A stretch of 64,000 bases of DNA. Source: Polynucleobacter sp. (GTDB lineage Bacteria > Pseudomonadota > Gammaproteobacteria > Burkholderiales > Burkholderiaceae). Below are positions 7,944 through 64,000 of the stretch, piece by piece. The translations under genes were made by a program, and so were the position numbers. The DNA lies in contig JAEMSI010000001.1 of the NCBI GenBank assembly GCA_016462905.1, positions 57,967-121,966 of the forward strand, given 5' to 3'. Every line of letters starts with the position of its first letter. The first letter of the stretch is position 1. Under the pieces are notes generated by a model. It was not told the DNA's origin and did no database searches. It saw nothing but the letters and a program-made list of their open reading frames with translations.

Positions 7944-9278
7944 TCAATGTGCCCGCTTGTTTCGATAAGCCATTACGCCCGCTACTGTATAAAAGGATCC
8001 GAAGACCACAATTCTATCATTTTCACCCGCCTTGGAGAGGACTTCTTCAAATCCCAAAGCAGGACTTTTCGCACTGGAAACGCGCTTTGCCTCGCCTTTA
8101 ATCGCAAGCAGTTCTTCGACCAATAAATCGGCCAAGATCTCAGCCGAGGCAGCTCTTGAAATAGGCAAATCAACGCAAACCCAATAATCAATCAAGGGTA
8201 AAAGTGGTTTGATCACTCCCGCAATATCCTTATCAGCCATTGCCCCAAAAATTGCATAGGTATAAGGGTGATACCCCATCGAATCAAGACTTTGTGCCAA
8301 CACAGCGCTAGCATGTGGATTGTGAGCAACGTCTAAAACAATGCTGGGTTTGCCAGGTAAAACTTGAAAACGCCCAGGTAACTCGACTGTTGCTAAGCCC
8401 GTGCGGATATCTTGAGCGCTCACAGGCAGACGATTTTTTAGCGCCATTAATGCAGCAATCGCAGCCGATGCATTTAACAATTGATTAGCACCTCGCAAAG
8501 CTGGATAGGCTAAGCCCCCCATTTTTTTTGGGAGCCCAGATGCCGCTTCGGACCTACCAGACCAAGACCATTGTTGACGATCGCCCTCATAAGAAAAGTC
8601 TCGACCTTGCAACCATAAATCGCAAGCCAATTGATTGGCGTGAGCCAATAAACTATTTGGTGGCAGCGGGTCGGCGCAAATCGCAATTCCCCCAGAGCGG
8701 AAAATACCGGCTTTCTCAAAACCAATTTTTTCTCGAGTATCCCCTAAAAAAGCCATATGGTCTAAATCAATGCTGGTGACAATCGCACAATCGGCATCCA
8801 CAATATTGACTGCATCCAATCGCCCACCCATACCAACTTCTAAGATAACTGCATCCAAATCGCTGGCAGCAAATAGATGCATGATGGCTAAGGTCGTAAA
8901 TTCAAAATACGTTAGGCTGGGTGTCCCAGGCGTAGCGCAACGGGCTAATTCAACTTGCTTAAAGTGTTCCAACAATCGCGCGTCATCAACCGCCTGTCCT
9001 TGAATGCGAGCCCGCTCGTTAAATTTTAATAAATGCGGAGAGGTGTGACAGGCTACTTTATACCCTGCCGCCAATAAAATACTTTCAATAAAGGAACAGG
9101 TTGAGCCTTTACCATTAGTTCCGCCAACAGTAAAAACGGGGCATGAAAATGAAAGCCCCAATTGATTTTTAACTAAGGTAATACGCTCTAAACCCATGTC
9201 GATTCCGACTGGGTGGGCTACTTCTAAATGACTTAGCCAGGAGTCAAGCGAATTAAAAAGATCAGGCTGAGGAGCCAC
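7944..9278 (-). CDS. folC: Bifunctional dihydrofolate synthase/folylpolyglutamate synthase
   Basis: Mur-ligase motif VGGTNGKGSTCSFIESIL; GTG start directly after accD stop. Confidence 0.92.
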   Translation of the reverse strand: MAPQPDLFNSLDSWLSHLEVAHPVGIDMGLERITLVKNQLGLSFSCPVFTVGGTNGKGSTCSFIESILLAAGYKVACHTSPHLLKFNERARIQGQAVDDARLLEHFKQVELARCATPGTPSLTYFEFTTLAIMHLFAASDLDAVILEVGMGGRLDAVNIVDADCAIVTSIDLDHMAFLGDTREKIGFEKAGIFRSGGIAICADPLPPNSLLAHANQLACDLWLQGRDFSYEGDRQQWSWSGRSEAASGLPKKMGGLAYPALRGANQLLNASAAIAALMALKNRLPVSAQDIRTGLATVELPGRFQVLPGKPSIVLDVAHNPHASAVLAQSLDSMGYHPYTYAIFGAMADKDIAGVIKPLLPLIDYWVCVDLPISRAASAEILADLLVEELLAIKGEAKRVSSAKSPALGFEEVLSKAGENDRIVVFGSFYTVAGVMAYRNKRAH

Positions 9279-10181
9279 TCAGCTTGCACCATTCATGCCA
9301 TTAAGGGCTTTCGGCATTTTATCTTGAGGAATATTATTTAATAAACCCAAAAGCCGAGCAATTTCAGTGCGCATTTGGCGTCGATCGACAATCATATCGA
9401 TACCGCCTTTTTGCATCAAAAATTCAGAGCGTTGAAAACCTTCTGGTAATTTTTCACGAACCGTTTGCTCGATCACGCGAGGGCCAGCAAAACCAATTAA
9501 GGCTTTCGGTTCCGCCATCACCACATCACCCATAAAGGCAAAGCTTGCCGAAATACCGCCCATAGTCGGATCAGTTAAAACGCTAATATAAGGTAAACCT
9601 GCCTTCGATAATTTCGTCAGCATCGAATTAGTTTTCGACATTTGCAAAAGCGACAATAAACTTTCTTGCATGCGTGCACCACCCGTTGCAGTCACGCAAA
9701 TAAAAGCACACTTTTTATCGATTGCATGTTGCACACCACGCACATACCGTTCACCAACCACTGAACCCATCGAGCCACCCATATATTGAAATTCAAACGC
9801 GGCAATAACTGCTGGAATAGTTTCTATTTTTCCAGCGATTACCACCAACGCTTCAGTTTCGCCCGAAGCATCATCGGCCTGCTTTAAGCGATCAGGGTAT
9901 TTTTTAGTATCGCGAAATTTCAGGGGATCAGTTGGAAAAATATTGGCGCCAATTTCAAGTCGTGGCTTAGGATCTAATAAATGGTCGATCCGTTGGCGCG
10001 CAGAAATGCGCATATGATGCGCACATTTAGGACAAACGGATAAATTGGATTCAATATCTGCGCTGTATAAGACAGTCTCACAACCGGGGCACTTAAGCCA
10101 CAAGCCTTCGGGAACCGTTTTTCGATTAACCGAATCGTTTTGTTGAATTTGGGGCGGGAGTAATTTATCTATCCAGCTCAT
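9279..10181 (-). CDS. accD: Acetyl-CoA carboxylase carboxyltransferase subunit beta
   Basis: Zn-ribbon [30 protein letters not shown] motif. Confidence 0.95.
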
Positions 10182-56491: not shown

Positions 56492-57373
56492 TTAAATGTG
56501 TTTACGCTTTTCCACCATCGTCATAAACTTTTCATACTCTTTATCGTCTACGGAGTAACTGTGGTCGTCATCAGGAAAAGTACCGCCTTTCACATCGGCA
56601 ATGTACTCCTGAATGCCCTTAACGGCAACCTCGGTCAAATTCGCATAGCGCTTAGTAAATTTGGGCTTAAAGTCTGAAAACACACCTAATAAATCATGGC
56701 ACAGTAATATTTGACCATCGGTGCCAACCCCAGCCCCAATCCCAATCGTTGGAATATCCAATTGCTTTGATATCACTGCGGCAATCTTGGCAGGGACAGC
56801 CTCAAATTCCAACATAAAACAACCAGCATCCTGAATTGCAAAAGCATCTTCTAAGATTTTCATCGCGGTATCAGCCGTACGACCCTGTATTCGGAATCCA
56901 CCGAACATGGCCACCGTATGAGGTGTCAATCCAATATGCGAAGCCGTTGGAATGCCAGAACTCACCATCGCTTTTAAAATATGCGCCTGTGATTTTCCGC
57001 CTTGAGGTTTGACTGCATCCGATCCCCCTTCTTGCATAAAACGGGTGGCGTTTTTCAAAGCAATCTCGACGGTGTGATAACTTTGGTAGGGCATGCATCC
57101 CAACACAAAGGTGTTCGGTGCCCCGCGACGAATTGCCGCAGTATGCATCACCATCATATCCATCGTGGCAGGAATTGTATTGGGGTGCCCATGCGCAATC
57201 ATCGCCAAGCTATCACCCGCAACCGCCACATCCACTCCAGCCGCTTCAGCCCATTTAGCCGAGGTGTAATCGGGCACCGACATGTACACCATTTTTTCGC
57301 CTGTCTTTTTCGAATCGTAAATCTCTCCGATATTGCGTTTCTTTTTATCTACAGTTGCGGCAGGCTGATTCAT
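56492..57373 (-). CDS. Divergent PanB-like protein (ketopantoate hydroxymethyltransferase superfamily)
   Basis: VAVAGDSLAMIAHGH, HTAAIRRGAPN, HIGLTPHTVAMFGGFRIQGR, IGIGAGVGTDGQILLCHDLLG; the usual LLADLP and KIEGG motifs read VLGCMP and KPQGG. Confidence 0.85.
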   Translation of the reverse strand: MNQPAATVDKKKRNIGEIYDSKKTGEKMVYMSVPDYTSAKWAEAAGVDVAVAGDSLAMIAHGHPNTIPATMDMMVMHTAAIRRGAPNTFVLGCMPYQSYHTVEIALKNATRFMQEGGSDAVKPQGGKSQAHILKAMVSSGIPTASHIGLTPHTVAMFGGFRIQGRTADTAMKILEDAFAIQDAGCFMLEFEAVPAKIAAVISKQLDIPTIGIGAGVGTDGQILLCHDLLGVFSDFKPKFTKRYANLTEVAVKGIQEYIADVKGGTFPDDDHSYSVDDKEYEKFMTMVEKRKHI

Positions 57374-57392: not shown

Positions 57393-58256
57393 TTACATGG
57401 CTCTCACGCTGGGGTTGGCCAAATTGGCATCGTAACTATCCACTTTGGTTCCTTTATACAGAATTTTGGCACTTTTCTCGGTAATCGTCTGATGCAACTC
57501 AACAAAAGCCGGCTCCATCTCGATCGATGGTTTCGGTTCGTGAACAAACGTATTGAAGGTATCAACGCCCCTTACCAAGGTGGCCGAATCATCGCCCTCC
57601 AATTGGCGCACATAAGTCGGTATATAGCGAATCGCAAAACCAATTCTGCGTTGATTCGATTGATTCGGTGGCGAGCCATGAACAATCCTGACATGGTGCA
57701 AAGACATTTCACCAGGCTCCAGTTCTAATGCCACAGCCTTACTTTTATCAATCTCAACGGCCACTTCTTGGCCGCGCGTTAACAGATTGTTTTTGCCAAA
57801 GGTATCTTGATGCGGAATTTGATCCATTAAATGCGTGCCGGGAATCACTTCCATGGCTCCATTGCTGCGATTGCTAGGAGATAAAGCAATCCACGCGGTC
57901 ACCACATCGGGTGTTGATAAACCCCAATAAGTGGAATCTTGGTGCCAAGAGACAAAAGCGGGATCATTCGCTTCTTTAATAAAGAAATTGCTGGTCCAAC
58001 ATAAAATATGGTGGCCATATAAATCTTCAATAGCATCGACAATTTTTTCTTGCCGAACTAGCTCATTAAGCCAAGGAAATAATAAATGCGTCTTATGCCG
58101 TTGCGAACCATGCAAAGGCTCACCCTGTTTTTTTTCAAAAGCTTCTAATTGTTCTCGAATTTCAAGAGCGCTTGCTTCATTTAATACTCGCAAATTCGAT
58201 AGATAACCATCTCTCTTAAATTGCTCAATTTGGGATCCACTTAAAAATAAACTCAT
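57393..58256 (-). CDS. Phytanoyl-CoA dioxygenase (PhyH) family protein
   Basis: 287 aa; WHQDSTYWGLS (HxD), PGTHLMDQI, HHVRIVHGSPPNQSNQRRIGFAIRYIP distal His/Arg. Confidence 0.88.
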   Translation of the reverse strand: MSLFLSGSQIEQFKRDGYLSNLRVLNEASALEIREQLEAFEKKQGEPLHGSQRHKTHLLFPWLNELVRQEKIVDAIEDLYGHHILCWTSNFFIKEANDPAFVSWHQDSTYWGLSTPDVVTAWIALSPSNRSNGAMEVIPGTHLMDQIPHQDTFGKNNLLTRGQEVAVEIDKSKAVALELEPGEMSLHHVRIVHGSPPNQSNQRRIGFAIRYIPTYVRQLEGDDSATLVRGVDTFNTFVHEPKPSIEMEPAFVELHQTITEKSAKILYKGTKVDSYDANLANPSVRAM

Positions 58257-58954
58257 GCGGCACCTCTCATCGATAAATGGGATTGTTTTTTTGCCTCTTC
58301 CACCGAACCAACAAAAACGATTTCACCACGCTCGATTACATAAACGCGATCAGCATAATCAGGAATATGAAAGGCATTCGATTCGGCCATCAAAATAGCT
58401 CTACCCATTTTGCGAATCGACGATAAACCTTCATTAATCAAGGGGATAATAGCAGGGGATAAACCCTCAAATGGTTCATCCAAAATGAGTAATTTAGGAT
58501 CTAAAGTTAAGGCACGGGCAATCGACAGCATTTTTCGTTCACCACCGGATAAATGATTACCACCGCGTTCGCGATACCCTTCTAGTTTTGGAAAAATACG
58601 ATAGGCTAAAGCAATCCGCTCTTGATTCGATAATTCGGTTTGAATCGTCCAGGTCGACATCTCAATATTTTCAGCAACCGTTAAATCACCAAAAACTTCG
58701 CTTTCCTCGGGAGCAAAACCAATTCCTTGACGTGCGATATCAAATGTTTTTTTACCCAGAATCGATTTGTTATCTAATAGAATATTGCCTGTTTTTGGTT
58801 TTAGATAGCCCATCACGCTCTTTAAGGTAGTTGTTTTACCGGCACCATTTCTGCCTACCAAACACACTAATTCGCCCGCTTTGATTTCAAGGCTAATGGC
58901 CCGCAGTATTGGGCTATTTTGAATATCGACCGAAATCGCCTGAATTTCAAGCAT
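58253..58954 (-). CDS. livF: Branched-chain amino acid-type ABC transporter ATP-binding protein
   Basis: GRNGAGKTTTLKSVMGYLKP; LSGGERKMLSIARAL; start trimmed from 59077 to MLEIQAISVD. Confidence 0.92.
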   Translation of the reverse strand: MLEIQAISVDIQNSPILRAISLEIKAGELVCLVGRNGAGKTTTLKSVMGYLKPKTGNILLDNKSILGKKTFDIARQGIGFAPEESEVFGDLTVAENIEMSTWTIQTELSNQERIALAYRIFPKLEGYRERGGNHLSGGERKMLSIARALTLDPKLLILDEPFEGLSPAIIPLINEGLSSIRKMGRAILMAESNAFHIPDYADRVYVIERGEIVFVGSVEEAKKQSHLSMRGAA

Positions 58955-59711
58955 GCTGCACTCGCTTTCCAATAATCTTGGCTTGTAGCTCTTCACTAGC
59001 GAAAAATTCCTTGGGCGGTAAATCAGCCAATAATTTACCCTCGGCCAAAGCGACGATCCGAGTTGAGTATTCCGCAACTAATTCCATATCGTGCTCAACC
59101 AGTAACATCGTCTTAATGCCTGCTAACTTAGCAGCCGTCATTAAGGTATCCATAATCCCACGCTTATCAGCAGTCGAAATGCCGCTAGTAGGCTCGTCTA
59201 ATAAAATTACTTGAGGACTTAAAGCAAAAGCACTAGCAATATCTAGTAATTTTTTCTCCCCTTGCGAAAGATAAGAAGCCTGCCAGTCCATTTTTTTATC
59301 TAAATTAAAGATCTTCGCCACCTCGAAAGCGCGCTCGACCATCTCGGTTTGACCAGCAGCTTGGGACCAAAAGTTATATTGCGTATTGCGCTGTGAGATC
59401 ACGGCAGACATGATTGTCTCTTCAACTGTCAATTGCGGAAAAATTTGTACCAGCTGAAAAGCCCGCGCCATGCCCAACTGGGCCAATTTGACTGGCCCCA
59501 CCCCCGCAATCGAATTACCTAAAAAATGAACCTCGCCAGAAGTAGGCTTTAGTAAGCCGGTTAAAACATTCACAAAGGTAGTTTTACCAGCGCCATTGGG
59601 GCCAACGATAGCGACAATTTCATTTTCATAAAATGGCAAAGTGACATCTTGTAAAGCTTTAAAAACACCGTAATGCTTTGATACGCTGGTGGCTTCGAGA
59701 ATCGGTTTCAT
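58947..59711 (-). CDS. livG: Branched-chain amino acid-type ABC transporter ATP-binding protein
   Basis: GPNGAGKTTFVNVLTGLLKP; LSQGEKKLLDIASAFAL; LLVEHDMELV. Confidence 0.92.
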   Translation of the reverse strand: MKPILEATSVSKHYGVFKALQDVTLPFYENEIVAIVGPNGAGKTTFVNVLTGLLKPTSGEVHFLGNSIAGVGPVKLAQLGMARAFQLVQIFPQLTVEETIMSAVISQRNTQYNFWSQAAGQTEMVERAFEVAKIFNLDKKMDWQASYLSQGEKKLLDIASAFALSPQVILLDEPTSGISTADKRGIMDTLMTAAKLAGIKTMLLVEHDMELVAEYSTRIVALAEGKLLADLPPKEFFASEELQAKIIGKRVQHA

Positions 59712-60673
59712 GATTCAATCTCTCTTTGGGGCATTTTTTTCTTACTAAAGATGCCCATAATTCCATTGGGCAATAAAATCACCAGCAAAACTAAAACAAC
59801 GCCCAAGGCAAAACGCCAATAGGGAGTTAGGGTCACCAATTGATCTTTTAGTCCAATAAAAACAAAAGCGCCAATAATCGGACCAAAGAAATTATTAAAG
59901 CCGCCCAAAATCGTCATAAAAACAATATTTCCAGATTGCGTCCAATACGCTAGCTCGGGATCTGCTAAGCCGACTGGTACGATCAATAAAGCTCCGCCTA
60001 CCGCTCCGTAGACAGCCGAGATAACAAATGAAATCAAACGGAATTGATGAACTTTAACCCCGAGATACTCGGCCTTACGTGGGTTATCACGAATTGCTTG
60101 CAAATGGAGCCCTAAGGGCGAACGCACGATGCGCCACATTAAATAACCAAAAATCAACATGACCACCAAGGAATAATAAAAAAAAGGGCCAATTAAAAAA
60201 GCAGTCTTATCTAATTCACTTAAATCCTGGCCTAGTAAATTAGGGCGTACAACCTTAATGCCGGAATCGCCACCCGATAAATCATAAAACTTGAACAAGA
60301 TGGAATGAAACAACATTCCAAAAGCTAGGGTTAGCATGCCAAAGAAAATACGTACATAACGAACGCATAAAATACCAATCGGGATCGAAATCAATAAGCT
60401 CACGCCAATCGAAGCCAGAATATTGAGTTCCATACTTTTAATACCCAAGCGGCTGGTGAGAATGGCTACCGTATAAGCCCCTAAAGCAATATAAAGCGCA
60501 TGACCAAAGGATAGTAAGCCGGTATACCCAAAGAGCAAATTAAAACCCAACAAAATCACGCTTGAGGCAATCGCAGGTAATAATAAAATCACATAATACG
60601 GTGGTAGAAAAAAAGGAGCGGCACACAAAACAAGCAATGCACCCAAAACAATTAGTTGTGTACGGAAATTCAT
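59708..60673 (-). CDS. livM: Branched-chain amino acid-type ABC transporter permease
   Basis: LLFGYTGLLSFGHALYIALGAYT; LGVKVHQFRLISFVISAVYGAVGGAL. Confidence 0.92.
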   Translation of the reverse strand: MNFRTQLIVLGALLVLCAAPFFLPPYYVILLLPAIASSVILLGFNLLFGYTGLLSFGHALYIALGAYTVAILTSRLGIKSMELNILASIGVSLLISIPIGILCVRYVRIFFGMLTLAFGMLFHSILFKFYDLSGGDSGIKVVRPNLLGQDLSELDKTAFLIGPFFYYSLVVMLIFGYLMWRIVRSPLGLHLQAIRDNPRKAEYLGVKVHQFRLISFVISAVYGAVGGALLIVPVGLADPELAYWTQSGNIVFMTILGGFNNFFGPIIGAFVFIGLKDQLVTLTPYWRFALGVVLVLLVILLPNGIMGIFSKKKMPQREIES

Positions 60674-61551
60674 TCGGCTGCCTTTCCGTATAAACCATTT
60701 GGTTTAAAAATTAATACTGAAATCACGATTAAATAAATTAATAATAATTCGAGCTCAGCATAAAAATGGATCGTAAAGGCGCGCATTAATCCGACTACGA
60801 GAGCCCCCACTAGGGCTCCGCGCATACTGCCCAAACCGCCAATCACCACCACCGCAAAGGCTTCGACTACCACCTCTGAAATCATTTCTAATGAAGCGGC
60901 TGAGGTAGGTACCACCAAAGCACCTCCGATGGTTCCTAAAATAGCACCCAGCGTGAAAATAATTACGTTAATCCAAACGACATTGACTCCTAGCGCCTCA
61001 CTCATGCGGCGATTTTCAGCAGTGGCACGAACAATCCGCCCAAAATTGGTTTTTTGTAGCATCCAACCCATGCCAAGTGCCAAAACAAGGCTCGAAAAAA
61101 TGACTAGTACTTTATATACGGGCAGAGAAACTGCCCCTAGGCTCACTTGCCCATAAACCATCGATAAATTACCTAGGGTCATGGGAGTTGCCCCCCAAAT
61201 CATGCGTATTAAATCTTCTAATAACAACATCACTGCAAAGGTTAGCAGTAGCTGAAAACCCTCTTCTCGGTCATACACTAAACGCAATAAGCGCTCAATC
61301 GCAATCCCCACTAAACCAATCCCAATTCCTGAGCCTAATAAAATCAAAATTAAAAAGTAAGAAGGGATGCCATATTTAATTGCTACCCCTACCATCGTGA
61401 TGCCAAAATAAGCACCGAGCGCATAAAAAGCGCCGCACGCTAAATTAACAATTTTTTGCACGCCAAAAACTAATTGCAATCCTCCTGCAATTAGAAATAA
61501 AACTGCGGCATGAAAAATACCGCTTAAAAATAGATCAATATAGGCTGTCAT
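60670..61551 (-). CDS. livH: Branched-chain amino acid-type ABC transporter permease
   Basis: GLQLVFGVQKIVNLACGAFYALGAY; ALGVNVVWINVIIFTLGAILGTIGGALV. Confidence 0.92.
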   Translation of the reverse strand: MTAYIDLFLSGIFHAAVLFLIAGGLQLVFGVQKIVNLACGAFYALGAYFGITMVGVAIKYGIPSYFLILILLGSGIGIGLVGIAIERLLRLVYDREEGFQLLLTFAVMLLLEDLIRMIWGATPMTLGNLSMVYGQVSLGAVSLPVYKVLVIFSSLVLALGMGWMLQKTNFGRIVRATAENRRMSEALGVNVVWINVIIFTLGAILGTIGGALVVPTSAASLEMISEVVVEAFAVVVIGGLGSMRGALVGALVVGLMRAFTIHFYAELELLLIYLIVISVLIFKPNGLYGKAAE

Positions 61552-61601: not shown

Positions 61602-62897
61602 TTAAAGGGTAATTTTGGCGGTCTCCAACCACTGCCAAAAATCCATTCCAGGTGGTTTTTGTAATTCACTGCTGAATTTCTTGTCCACAGGGTTGGAAGT
61701 AACAAAGTCATATTTATTTTTATGCGTCGTTAAACCCTGATAGAAAGTCTGTTCGGCAATATGATCTTTGCGCATTTTTCCTGGTCCGCCTAAAGACTCA
61801 ACCTCAATACCCTCGATTGCAGCTGCAATCTCCTCCGTTTTCGGCCAAGATCCACCCTTGGCTTTCTGAGCTTTTTCAGCGCCAGCCTTAAATACTTGCA
61901 TTGCAAAATAGGCGCGATCAGCTTCCCAGTTCGGATAATCTTTGTACTTGTCAAAGTAATGCTGAACAAACTCTTTCTGCAAAGGTGATGCATTCGGATA
62001 ATTAAAATCAAGCGTATTTGATCCAAACACGATACCCTCAGGCGTAAACTCTTTTTTCAATAAAGTTTGTTGGAACCCAGCTGCTGGCATTACAAACTTG
62101 GTATCTTTAGTTAAGCCAGCTGCATGAGCGTTTTGCATAAATACTGGTAAATCCGCAAATAGCAGTGAGGAAAAAATCAAATCAGGCTTTGCGGCTTTTA
62201 GTGAGGCAATATGACTTGATAAATCCATCGTACCAACCTTAGGCCATTGCTCAGCAACTACCTTCACTTCAATACCAAAGCGCTTCAACAAAGCTTGGAA
62301 AGCAGCCCAGTTATTTCGACCGTATGAATAATCGGGGTTAATACCAGCGATCGTGGCAAACTTCCCTTTGTAATATTTAATCGCTAGTAACGATGCCATC
62401 ACGGCTTCGCACTCATTATCGGTTGAGCGGAATAAATATTTTGGATTAGGAATCGTTTCTTTAACACCGTCCTGAGAGGTACCATCCCAATAAATCGTTA
62501 AGGCCTTCATCTCCTCAACAGTCGGACTCATTGCCAACGAAACCCCTGAAGATACTAAGCCCTGCACACAGTCGACCTTATCTTGCAGAACCAATTTACG
62601 GAAACGTTCGGTGGTATCTTTGGCATTCGTTTCTTCTTCGATCACTAATTCCACTTTACGACCACCAATACCGCCTGCTTTGTTAATCCTTTCTACTGCA
62701 AATTGAGTGCCTCGTAAACCACAGACACCAATCGTACCGGCAATCCCCGCCTGCGGCGCAAGAATGCCAACTTTTAAAGGCGTATTTTGTGCAATCGCAG
62801 GAAATCCCCAGCCACCACCAGCCGCCAAAACCGAAGCGGCGCCAATTCCTTTAATTACGGTACGGCGATTTTCATTTTGAATCTGCTTCTTCTTCAT
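61602..62897 (-). CDS. livK: Branched-chain-type ABC transporter substrate-binding protein with Tat-like leader
   Basis: NRRTVIKGIGAASVLAAGGGWGFPAIAQ leader; KVGILAPQAGIAGTIGVCGLRGTQFAVERINKAGGIGGRKVELVIEEE. Confidence 0.9.
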   Translation of the reverse strand: MKKKQIQNENRRTVIKGIGAASVLAAGGGWGFPAIAQNTPLKVGILAPQAGIAGTIGVCGLRGTQFAVERINKAGGIGGRKVELVIEEETNAKDTTERFRKLVLQDKVDCVQGLVSSGVSLAMSPTVEEMKALTIYWDGTSQDGVKETIPNPKYLFRSTDNECEAVMASLLAIKYYKGKFATIAGINPDYSYGRNNWAAFQALLKRFGIEVKVVAEQWPKVGTMDLSSHIASLKAAKPDLIFSSLLFADLPVFMQNAHAAGLTKDTKFVMPAAGFQQTLLKKEFTPEGIVFGSNTLDFNYPNASPLQKEFVQHYFDKYKDYPNWEADRAYFAMQVFKAGAEKAQKAKGGSWPKTEEIAAAIEGIEVESLGGPGKMRKDHIAEQTFYQGLTTHKNKYDFVTSNPVDKKFSSELQKPPGMDFWQWLETAKITL

Positions 62898-62957: not shown

Positions 62958-63647
62958 TTAATTCTCAGCAAAGAAAGTGTTTCGAGTGCACTCTTCGATG
63001 TAATCCAACAACTTATCTAATGCAATTCCCGCCTGTTTTTCTTTTCCTTGAGCAATCTCCTCAGCTAATATCGCATGCAAGTTAGCCGATTCGACTAAAT
63101 CAGTATGTTGCTGCAGATGCCCAAACCAAAAACGACGTGACATCCCATGCAGAGAAGACATAGCTGCTGCGGCAAATTCATTGCGAGCCGCAATCACTGT
63201 AAAGTCATTAAGTTCTTTATCAATCTTTAAAAATAAAGTGTTATTTTTGTCGCGCGCTGCCCGCCGAAACTCCTTAGCTAAACGCTCAAATTCTTTTTTA
63301 TCTTCGGCATTGGCCCGTTTAGCTGCTTTTTTGCAAATTAAACGCTCTAACTCTCGCCGCGTTTCTAAAACACGTAATTGTTTTTGAGCATTGACATCGG
63401 TAATAAAAACTCCCCGTTTTGGCAGAATGGTAACCAAATGCTCGCGGCTCAAGCGTTGTAAGGCTTCACGAATCGGGGTTCGACCAATATCTAAAAGAGC
63501 AGAGAGCTGGCTTTCGGAGATGGGCGTACCTGGGGCCAATTGGTTTGTCACAATCAGTTCCTCAATCTGACGATAGGCCAAATCGGATAACGACTGATCT
63601 TCTGGATTAATTACTAAGGCTAAATTCGTGAATCGTCGAGAGGCCAT
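62958..63647 (-). CDS. GntR-family regulator, FadR/FCD subfamily
   Basis: GTPISESQLSALLDIGRTPIREALQRLSREHLVTILPKRGVFI wHTH plus all-helical FCD-like domain. Confidence 0.9.
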   Translation of the reverse strand: MASRRFTNLALVINPEDQSLSDLAYRQIEELIVTNQLAPGTPISESQLSALLDIGRTPIREALQRLSREHLVTILPKRGVFITDVNAQKQLRVLETRRELERLICKKAAKRANAEDKKEFERLAKEFRRAARDKNNTLFLKIDKELNDFTVIAARNEFAAAAMSSLHGMSRRFWFGHLQQHTDLVESANLHAILAEEIAQGKEKQAGIALDKLLDYIEECTRNTFFAEN

Positions 63648-63662
63648 CTGAATAAAAAGCCC

Positions 63663-64000
63663 TTAAGCAAACTGTTGCGGAGCTTCGGCTCGATCAAACA
63701 TGCCGTAATCACGGCATACCTCAAACCAACGTAAATCAATCTCTGCGCCGAGTTGCGAAGCCTTCAATGGCATCGCCTCAGCACCCTGTTCAATACTTAA
63801 ATCACACAAGGCAATACCTCTTTGGGGATTAATAATGCCTTTAAATAAACGCGGCTGGCGTAACTGCATATCAGCTTGTTTCACTAATGCGTTAATTTTT
63901 TCAAAATCACCGACCAAAACAGCAAGGCCTTCACGAGCCCGATTCGGTGGAGCAAAGTCATCGGCTGTTTTCTCTTCACCCACCCGTAAGCGATAATCCT
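63663..64000 (-). CDS. Partial ORF running off the window edge, possibly a VOC/glyoxalase-fold protein
   Basis: Frame open to position 64000; GLAVLVGDFEKINALVKQADMQLRQPRLFKGIINPQRGIALCDLSI loosely resembles a VOC half-module. Confidence 0.35.
   Translation of the reverse strand, partial: DYRLRVGEEKTADDFAPPNRAREGLAVLVGDFEKINALVKQADMQLRQPRLFKGIINPQRGIALCDLSIEQGAEAMPLKASQLGAEIDLRWFEVCRDYGMFDRAEAPQQFA

Follow-up and report, generated by a model that had tools for sequence, protein, structure and literature searches.

The window, by which we mean the whole 64,000-nucleotide stretch of DNA analyzed here, carries close to its end a run of genes that all lie on the minus strand. The gene of interest (56492..57373) encodes a 293-residue PanB-like protein, in which the positions of the PanB active site are occupied by D54, C93, K122, Q124, H146, and E191. 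Beside it is a PhyH-type dioxygenase (57393..58256), whose HxD motif (H105, D107) and distal His/Arg are invariant in a cluster of seven; relatives of this dioxygenase adjoin a sister-clade PanB-like gene in other genomes. Transport genes come next, comprising a LivF-like ABC transporter ATPase (58253..59077, the real start of which is probably internal, at ∼58954, from comparison with locus L036), a LivG-like ATPase (58947..59711), branched-chain-type permeases resembling LivM (59708..60673) and LivH (60670..61551), and a Peripla_BP_6 substrate-binding protein (61602..62897). These are followed by a GntR/FCD regulator (62958..63647) and a 196 amino acid ABM-domain protein (63663..64000), which is cut by the window end and continues to ∼64253.

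Beyond the window, the ABM-domain gene is followed by a membrane hydroxylase-like gene (∼64277–65116; L043:4244–5083). Beside the latter is an apparent malonate decarboxylase (mdc) cluster (L043:5188–12223), which includes a Bug-type binding protein and was identified from a reading of the ORFs.

Fold and metal site of the PanB-like protein

The window protein matches PF02548 (Pantoate_transf) across the full domain (4.6e-93), scores 287 bits against the NCBIfam panB equivalog TIGR00222 (cut-off 207.6), and aligns through residues 22–273 with E. coli PanB (1m3u; 1.3e-57), to which it is 38% identical. These alignments bear out the full-length match to PanB that the original prediction had made by eye. 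An AlphaFold2 model built with 40 clade and sister sequences (pLDDT 82.9, pTM 0.84, with low confidence in the lid loop, residues 151–158) has only PanB proteins as its nearest solved structures (3vav and 1m3u; TM 0.79–0.80 by query and 0.88–0.89 by target), and the next matches are PEP mutase and methylisocitrate lyase.

Residues D45, D84, K112, E114, H136, and E181 of E. coli PanB correspond to D, C, K, Q, H, and E in the window protein, with D45 paired to D54, D84 to C93, E114 to Q124, and E181 to E191. The pairing is consistent across HMM, MAFFT, and tree alignments, and it agrees with the original prediction at every position named there: the first metal Asp and the catalytic Glu are kept, while D84 has become Cys and E114 has become Gln. 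Computed from the ORF start at 57373, the Cys93 and Gln124 codons lie at 57095..57097 and 57002..57004 on the minus strand. S46, K112, and H136 are also retained. The protein thus has the family score and fold of a functional PanB together with K112, H136, and E181, but reads D, C, Q at the metal-site trio D45, D84, and E114, and the equivalog model TIGR00222 over-calls it. In E. coli PanB, E114 contacts the metal through a water molecule, so “metal-site acid” is a safer name than “ligand” for this position.

Among species-representative genomes, 186 relatives were detected, and the 80 best loci (79%–87% identity) were retained; further relatives were taken from other genomes within the genus and the order, as well as from the Methylobacterium nodulans plasmid pMNOD02. 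More than 80 Cys/Gln orthologs come from Alpha-, Beta-, and Gammaproteobacteria (76%–87% identity). All 85 clade sequences have Cys at position 93, and all 91 sequences, sister group included, have Gln at position 124 (two records are counted twice). Such invariance means that the two substitutions reflect neither chance nor sequencing error. Between the window gene and its orthologs dN is ∼0.1 with synonymous sites saturated, which indicates strong purifying selection. Mean column identity is 84%, and the active-site Lys, His, Glu, and Asp are retained in nearly all sequences. All 31 canonical PanBs compared, including those of E. coli and M. tuberculosis, retain D, D, E.

By maximum likelihood, the Cys/Gln proteins form one clade (support 100/99) that joins the sister group (99/98), with canonical PanB apart (93/80); the tree is midpoint-rooted with some long branches, and it shows grouping, not the direction of residue change. 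The sister group has Ala or Ser at E. coli position 84 and Gln at 114 (for example, L045:13215–14078 and L090:2112–2975), and its genes share a locus or contig with a Cys/Gln gene in several genomes. Two of the metagenome-assembled genome (MAG) records, L045 and L064, are titled Bordetella parapertussis; the clusters nearest to theirs are from freshwater Burkholderiales, and the species label is probably wrong. A more distant PF02548 relative (L166, G069:C1:298805–299359; 27% identity) has D, A, F, and N at E. coli positions 45, 84, 112, and 114, so the family holds yet more metal-site variants. A panB on an Enterococcus plasmid (44.5%) was rejected as a candidate, as it belongs to a normal pan operon and keeps D, D, E.

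Outside the metal site, the clade shows near-fixed differences from canonical PanB at T23S, Y25P, L32W, V133T, Q142H, and V214L (E. coli numbering). The Q142H change introduces an invariant His (H152) in the lid loop, and V214 is among the residues altered in PanB engineering (PMC7610986). Among the clade-specific positions there is no conserved acidic residue that could compensate for those lost.

Conserved neighborhood and the other PanB genes

The GntR regulator adjoins the PanB-like gene in 62 of the 80 loci. The membrane hydroxylase-like protein is present in 58, and at least one of this protein and a PhyH dioxygenase in 62; transport genes of the TRAP or branched-chain type occur in 53. 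Corrinoid or one-carbon genes are found in 17 loci, 8 of which have MtrH-, RACo-, or MetV-type genes. The neighbor maps use a conservation-weighted choice of ORFs, and some ORFs, such as cluster 14, are probably antisense artifacts. As a control, we compared 15 canonical panB regions of 12–20 kb from the same genomes. The hydroxylase-like protein was found in 26 of 30 loci versus 0 of 15 control regions, GntR in 25 of 30 versus 0 of 15, and corrinoid genes in 9 of 30 versus 0 of 15. Regulator, oxygenase, transport, and corrinoid genes were all absent from the 15 control regions, with the exception of a DctM-like permease in two. Twelve His are invariant among 60 hydroxylase-like sequences. The protein passes Pfam FA_hydroxylase in relatives, whereas the copy in the window genome does not reach E 0.1.

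Several other genes accompany the cluster. At L036:7467–9860, two genes come directly after the PanB-like gene, one for a PanE-family reductase and one for a second protein that resembles PanE very distantly; this arrangement is seen in several Polynucleobacter-type loci. A cysteine-dioxygenase-like CDO_I cupin lies near the gene in nine loci (including L047:11613–12239 and L037:7903–8535), and its recurrence may hint at a sulfur compound. DUF6166, of ∼100 amino acids, accompanies the cluster in 25 loci (for example, L098:4116–4418 and L034:11595–11885), and does so too where the PanB-like gene is missing, on plasmids of Halomonas and Hydrogenophaga.

In the window genome, PF02548 is represented by three genes. 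One is a canonical panB (D, D, E) on contig C49, where it adjoins folK, near dnaJ and a partial pcnB-like ORF (gene names read from the ORFs), and panC is on the same contig. The pairing of panB with folK is typical of canonical copies (PMC4814558). The second, canonical panB that the original prediction proposed looking for is present. A canonical panB also occurs in 15 of 20 genomes carrying the Cys/Gln protein. Among the five without it, two Stella genomes and Fodinicurvata also have no panC, while in the MAGs G063 and G072 panC is present and a canonical panB was not found, so a residual role in pantothenate synthesis may persist in some genomes. Within the genus, the Cys/Gln gene is accessory (3 of 37 genomes searched). 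Given the separate canonical panB, the three genomes without panC, and the differing neighbors, the gene appears not to be tied to pantothenate synthesis.

The third PF02548 gene, on contig C71 (L041, G000:C71:22000–40000, at 8730–9602), retains D, D, E but has SDT in place of GDS. Its neighbors are a Rieske oxygenase, a ferredoxin and reductase, sulfonate-type ABC transport, TauE, a GcvT-domain protein, and a molybdopterin oxidoreductase, with FTHFS and a second FolD close by; this looks like a separate C1/sulfonate catabolic cluster. Despite the transporter, we do not claim methanesulfonate as its substrate, because the Rieske ligand spacing is an ordinary 17 residues and the nearest PDB oxygenases are ring-hydroxylating. 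In methanesulfonate monooxygenase this spacing is longer than ordinary.

Candidate functions

The canonical panB elsewhere in the genome, the separate clade, the lack of a compensating acid, and the catabolic neighbors all support the original prediction of a neofunctionalized PanB-fold enzyme outside the pantothenate pathway. We consider it probable that the window protein is not an ordinary pantothenate enzyme.

PanB transfers the hydroxymethyl group of methylene-THF to 2-oxoisovalerate, and a divalent metal drives enolization (PMC7770189). From the oxygenases, transporters, and one-carbon genes nearby, we infer a catabolic retro-aldol transfer to THF, and tentatively favor a one-carbon (hydroxymethyl) lyase or transferase that acts after an oxygenase. 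In this scheme, the cell would import a small carboxylate resembling a 2-hydroxy or 2-oxo acid, and the membrane di-iron hydroxylase or the PhyH dioxygenase would hydroxylate a methyl group to hydroxymethyl. Running in the retro-aldol direction, the PanB-like enzyme would then pass this carbon to tetrahydrofolate as a formaldehyde-level unit, to be oxidized by FolD. The enolate would be stabilized by a changed or metal-free site in place of the Asp/Asp/Glu Mg site, with the retained PanB residues presumably handling the substrate carboxylate and the hydroxymethyl group. A hint of the substrate type comes from the TRAP binding protein of L037, whose nearest matches carry deposited names for the binding of solutes, sorbitol/mannitol, lactate, and ketoacids. 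The C71 paralog, with its Rieske oxygenase, GcvT, FTHFS, and FolD, fits the same one-carbon theme. Also in favor of the scheme are the invariant His of the hydroxylase-like protein, the HxD motif of the PhyH proteins, and the PanE-family reductase behind the gene in L036.

In some relatives, a corrinoid module may supply further methyl groups to the same folate pool. The complete module comprises UroD/B12 two-domain proteins, a methyl-THF:corrinoid methyltransferase, RACo, MTHFR, and a DUF1638 protein, and its layout is similar to that of CmuA, CmuB, and MetF2 in the chloromethane pathway (PMC3621897), in a paper whose main text does not mention panB. Unlike these relatives, where the module lies beside the gene, the window genome has no RACo, the corrinoid reactivator, so the module is not part of the pathway there. 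B12-binding_2 occurs in only two places in this genome, one of them in a 932 amino acid frame that may be MetH. The absence of RACo, and the presence of corrinoid genes near only 17 of the 80 loci, count against the folate-linked reading, as do two further points: the membrane hydroxylase might have a lipid substrate with no connection to the PanB-like enzyme, and the loss of two metal-site acids makes a conventional class II retro-aldol reaction of a 2-oxo acid less easy to account for.

It is also possible, if doubtful, that the protein is a neofunctionalized PanB-fold C-C lyase, isomerase, or decarboxylase whose substrate is an organic acid taken up by the cell and which works like members of the PEP mutase/isocitrate lyase superfamily, with neither folate nor formaldehyde chemistry. 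PEP mutase and methylisocitrate lyase are the structural neighbors next after PanB, the pocket is altered outside the metal site (Y25P, V133T, Q142H, V214L), and a context of transport and GntR regulation would suit any acid; retention of all of K112, H136, and E181 and the recurrence of one-carbon genes near the gene argue the other way. Ketopantoate synthesis, with the protein as an additional or back-up PanB whose metal site is relaxed or different, appears improbable, since the whole clade has lost both of the acids that canonical PanB keeps without exception, the window genome has its own canonical panB, the Cys/Gln protein is the sole family member in the three genomes without panC, and the neighborhood is unlike that of canonical panB; these points stand against the score above the equivalog cut-off, the MAGs G063 and G072, and the PanE-family gene that directly follows in some loci. 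Least probable of all is a catalytically dead relative serving as a binding or regulatory protein for the ligand of the operon, as the loss of two metal-site acids might suggest, because so tightly kept a pocket is not expected of a dead enzyme.

The folate-linked retro-aldol reading extends to a broader proposal that we put forward as speculative and rather unlikely: a new class of PanB-fold enzymes forming the second half of an oxygenase-coupled demethylation, with transfer to THF without the classical Mg site, and with parallel versions in the Ala/Ser-Gln sister group (with PhyH) and the third paralog (with a Rieske oxygenase). Literature searches on PanB paralogs, on panB with sterol desaturase or TRAP genes, and on panB with corrinoid genes found nothing on the Cys/Gln clade, and homarine catabolism, considered as a lead, gave nothing usable.

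Significance and comparison with known systems

The window gene is conserved, of the PanB type, probably mis-annotated, and likely to have a new function. At least 80 species-level genomes carry a clade protein, and those checked are annotated panB, as in the M. nodulans record. Since the protein probably has another function, a panB annotation can mislead when it is used to predict vitamin B5 prototrophy: Stella and Fodinicurvata, for example, have the Cys/Gln protein and no panC. The clade marks an uncharacterized catabolic cluster of Proteobacteria from freshwater, soil, and the sea, with methylotroph genera among them, and is a natural experiment on the purpose of the PanB metal site.

The PEP mutase/isocitrate lyase superfamily, although the next-best structural match, is only 10%–16% identical (TM ∼0.55–0.6), and PanB structures fit the window model far better. 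The sister group is closer, at ∼45%–52% identity, and shares E114Q, W32, P25, and H142 with the window protein, often at the same locus, but has Ala or Ser in place of Cys and occurs together with a window-type PhyH. Canonical PanB (PF02548, TIGR00222; 1m3u, 1oy0, 3vav) has the same fold and length, with D45, S46, K112, H136, and E181 in common. In contrast to canonical PanB, the clade combines Cys at 84 and Gln at 114 with the changes Y25P, L32W, V133T, Q142H, and V214L, catabolic neighbors, and an accessory distribution.
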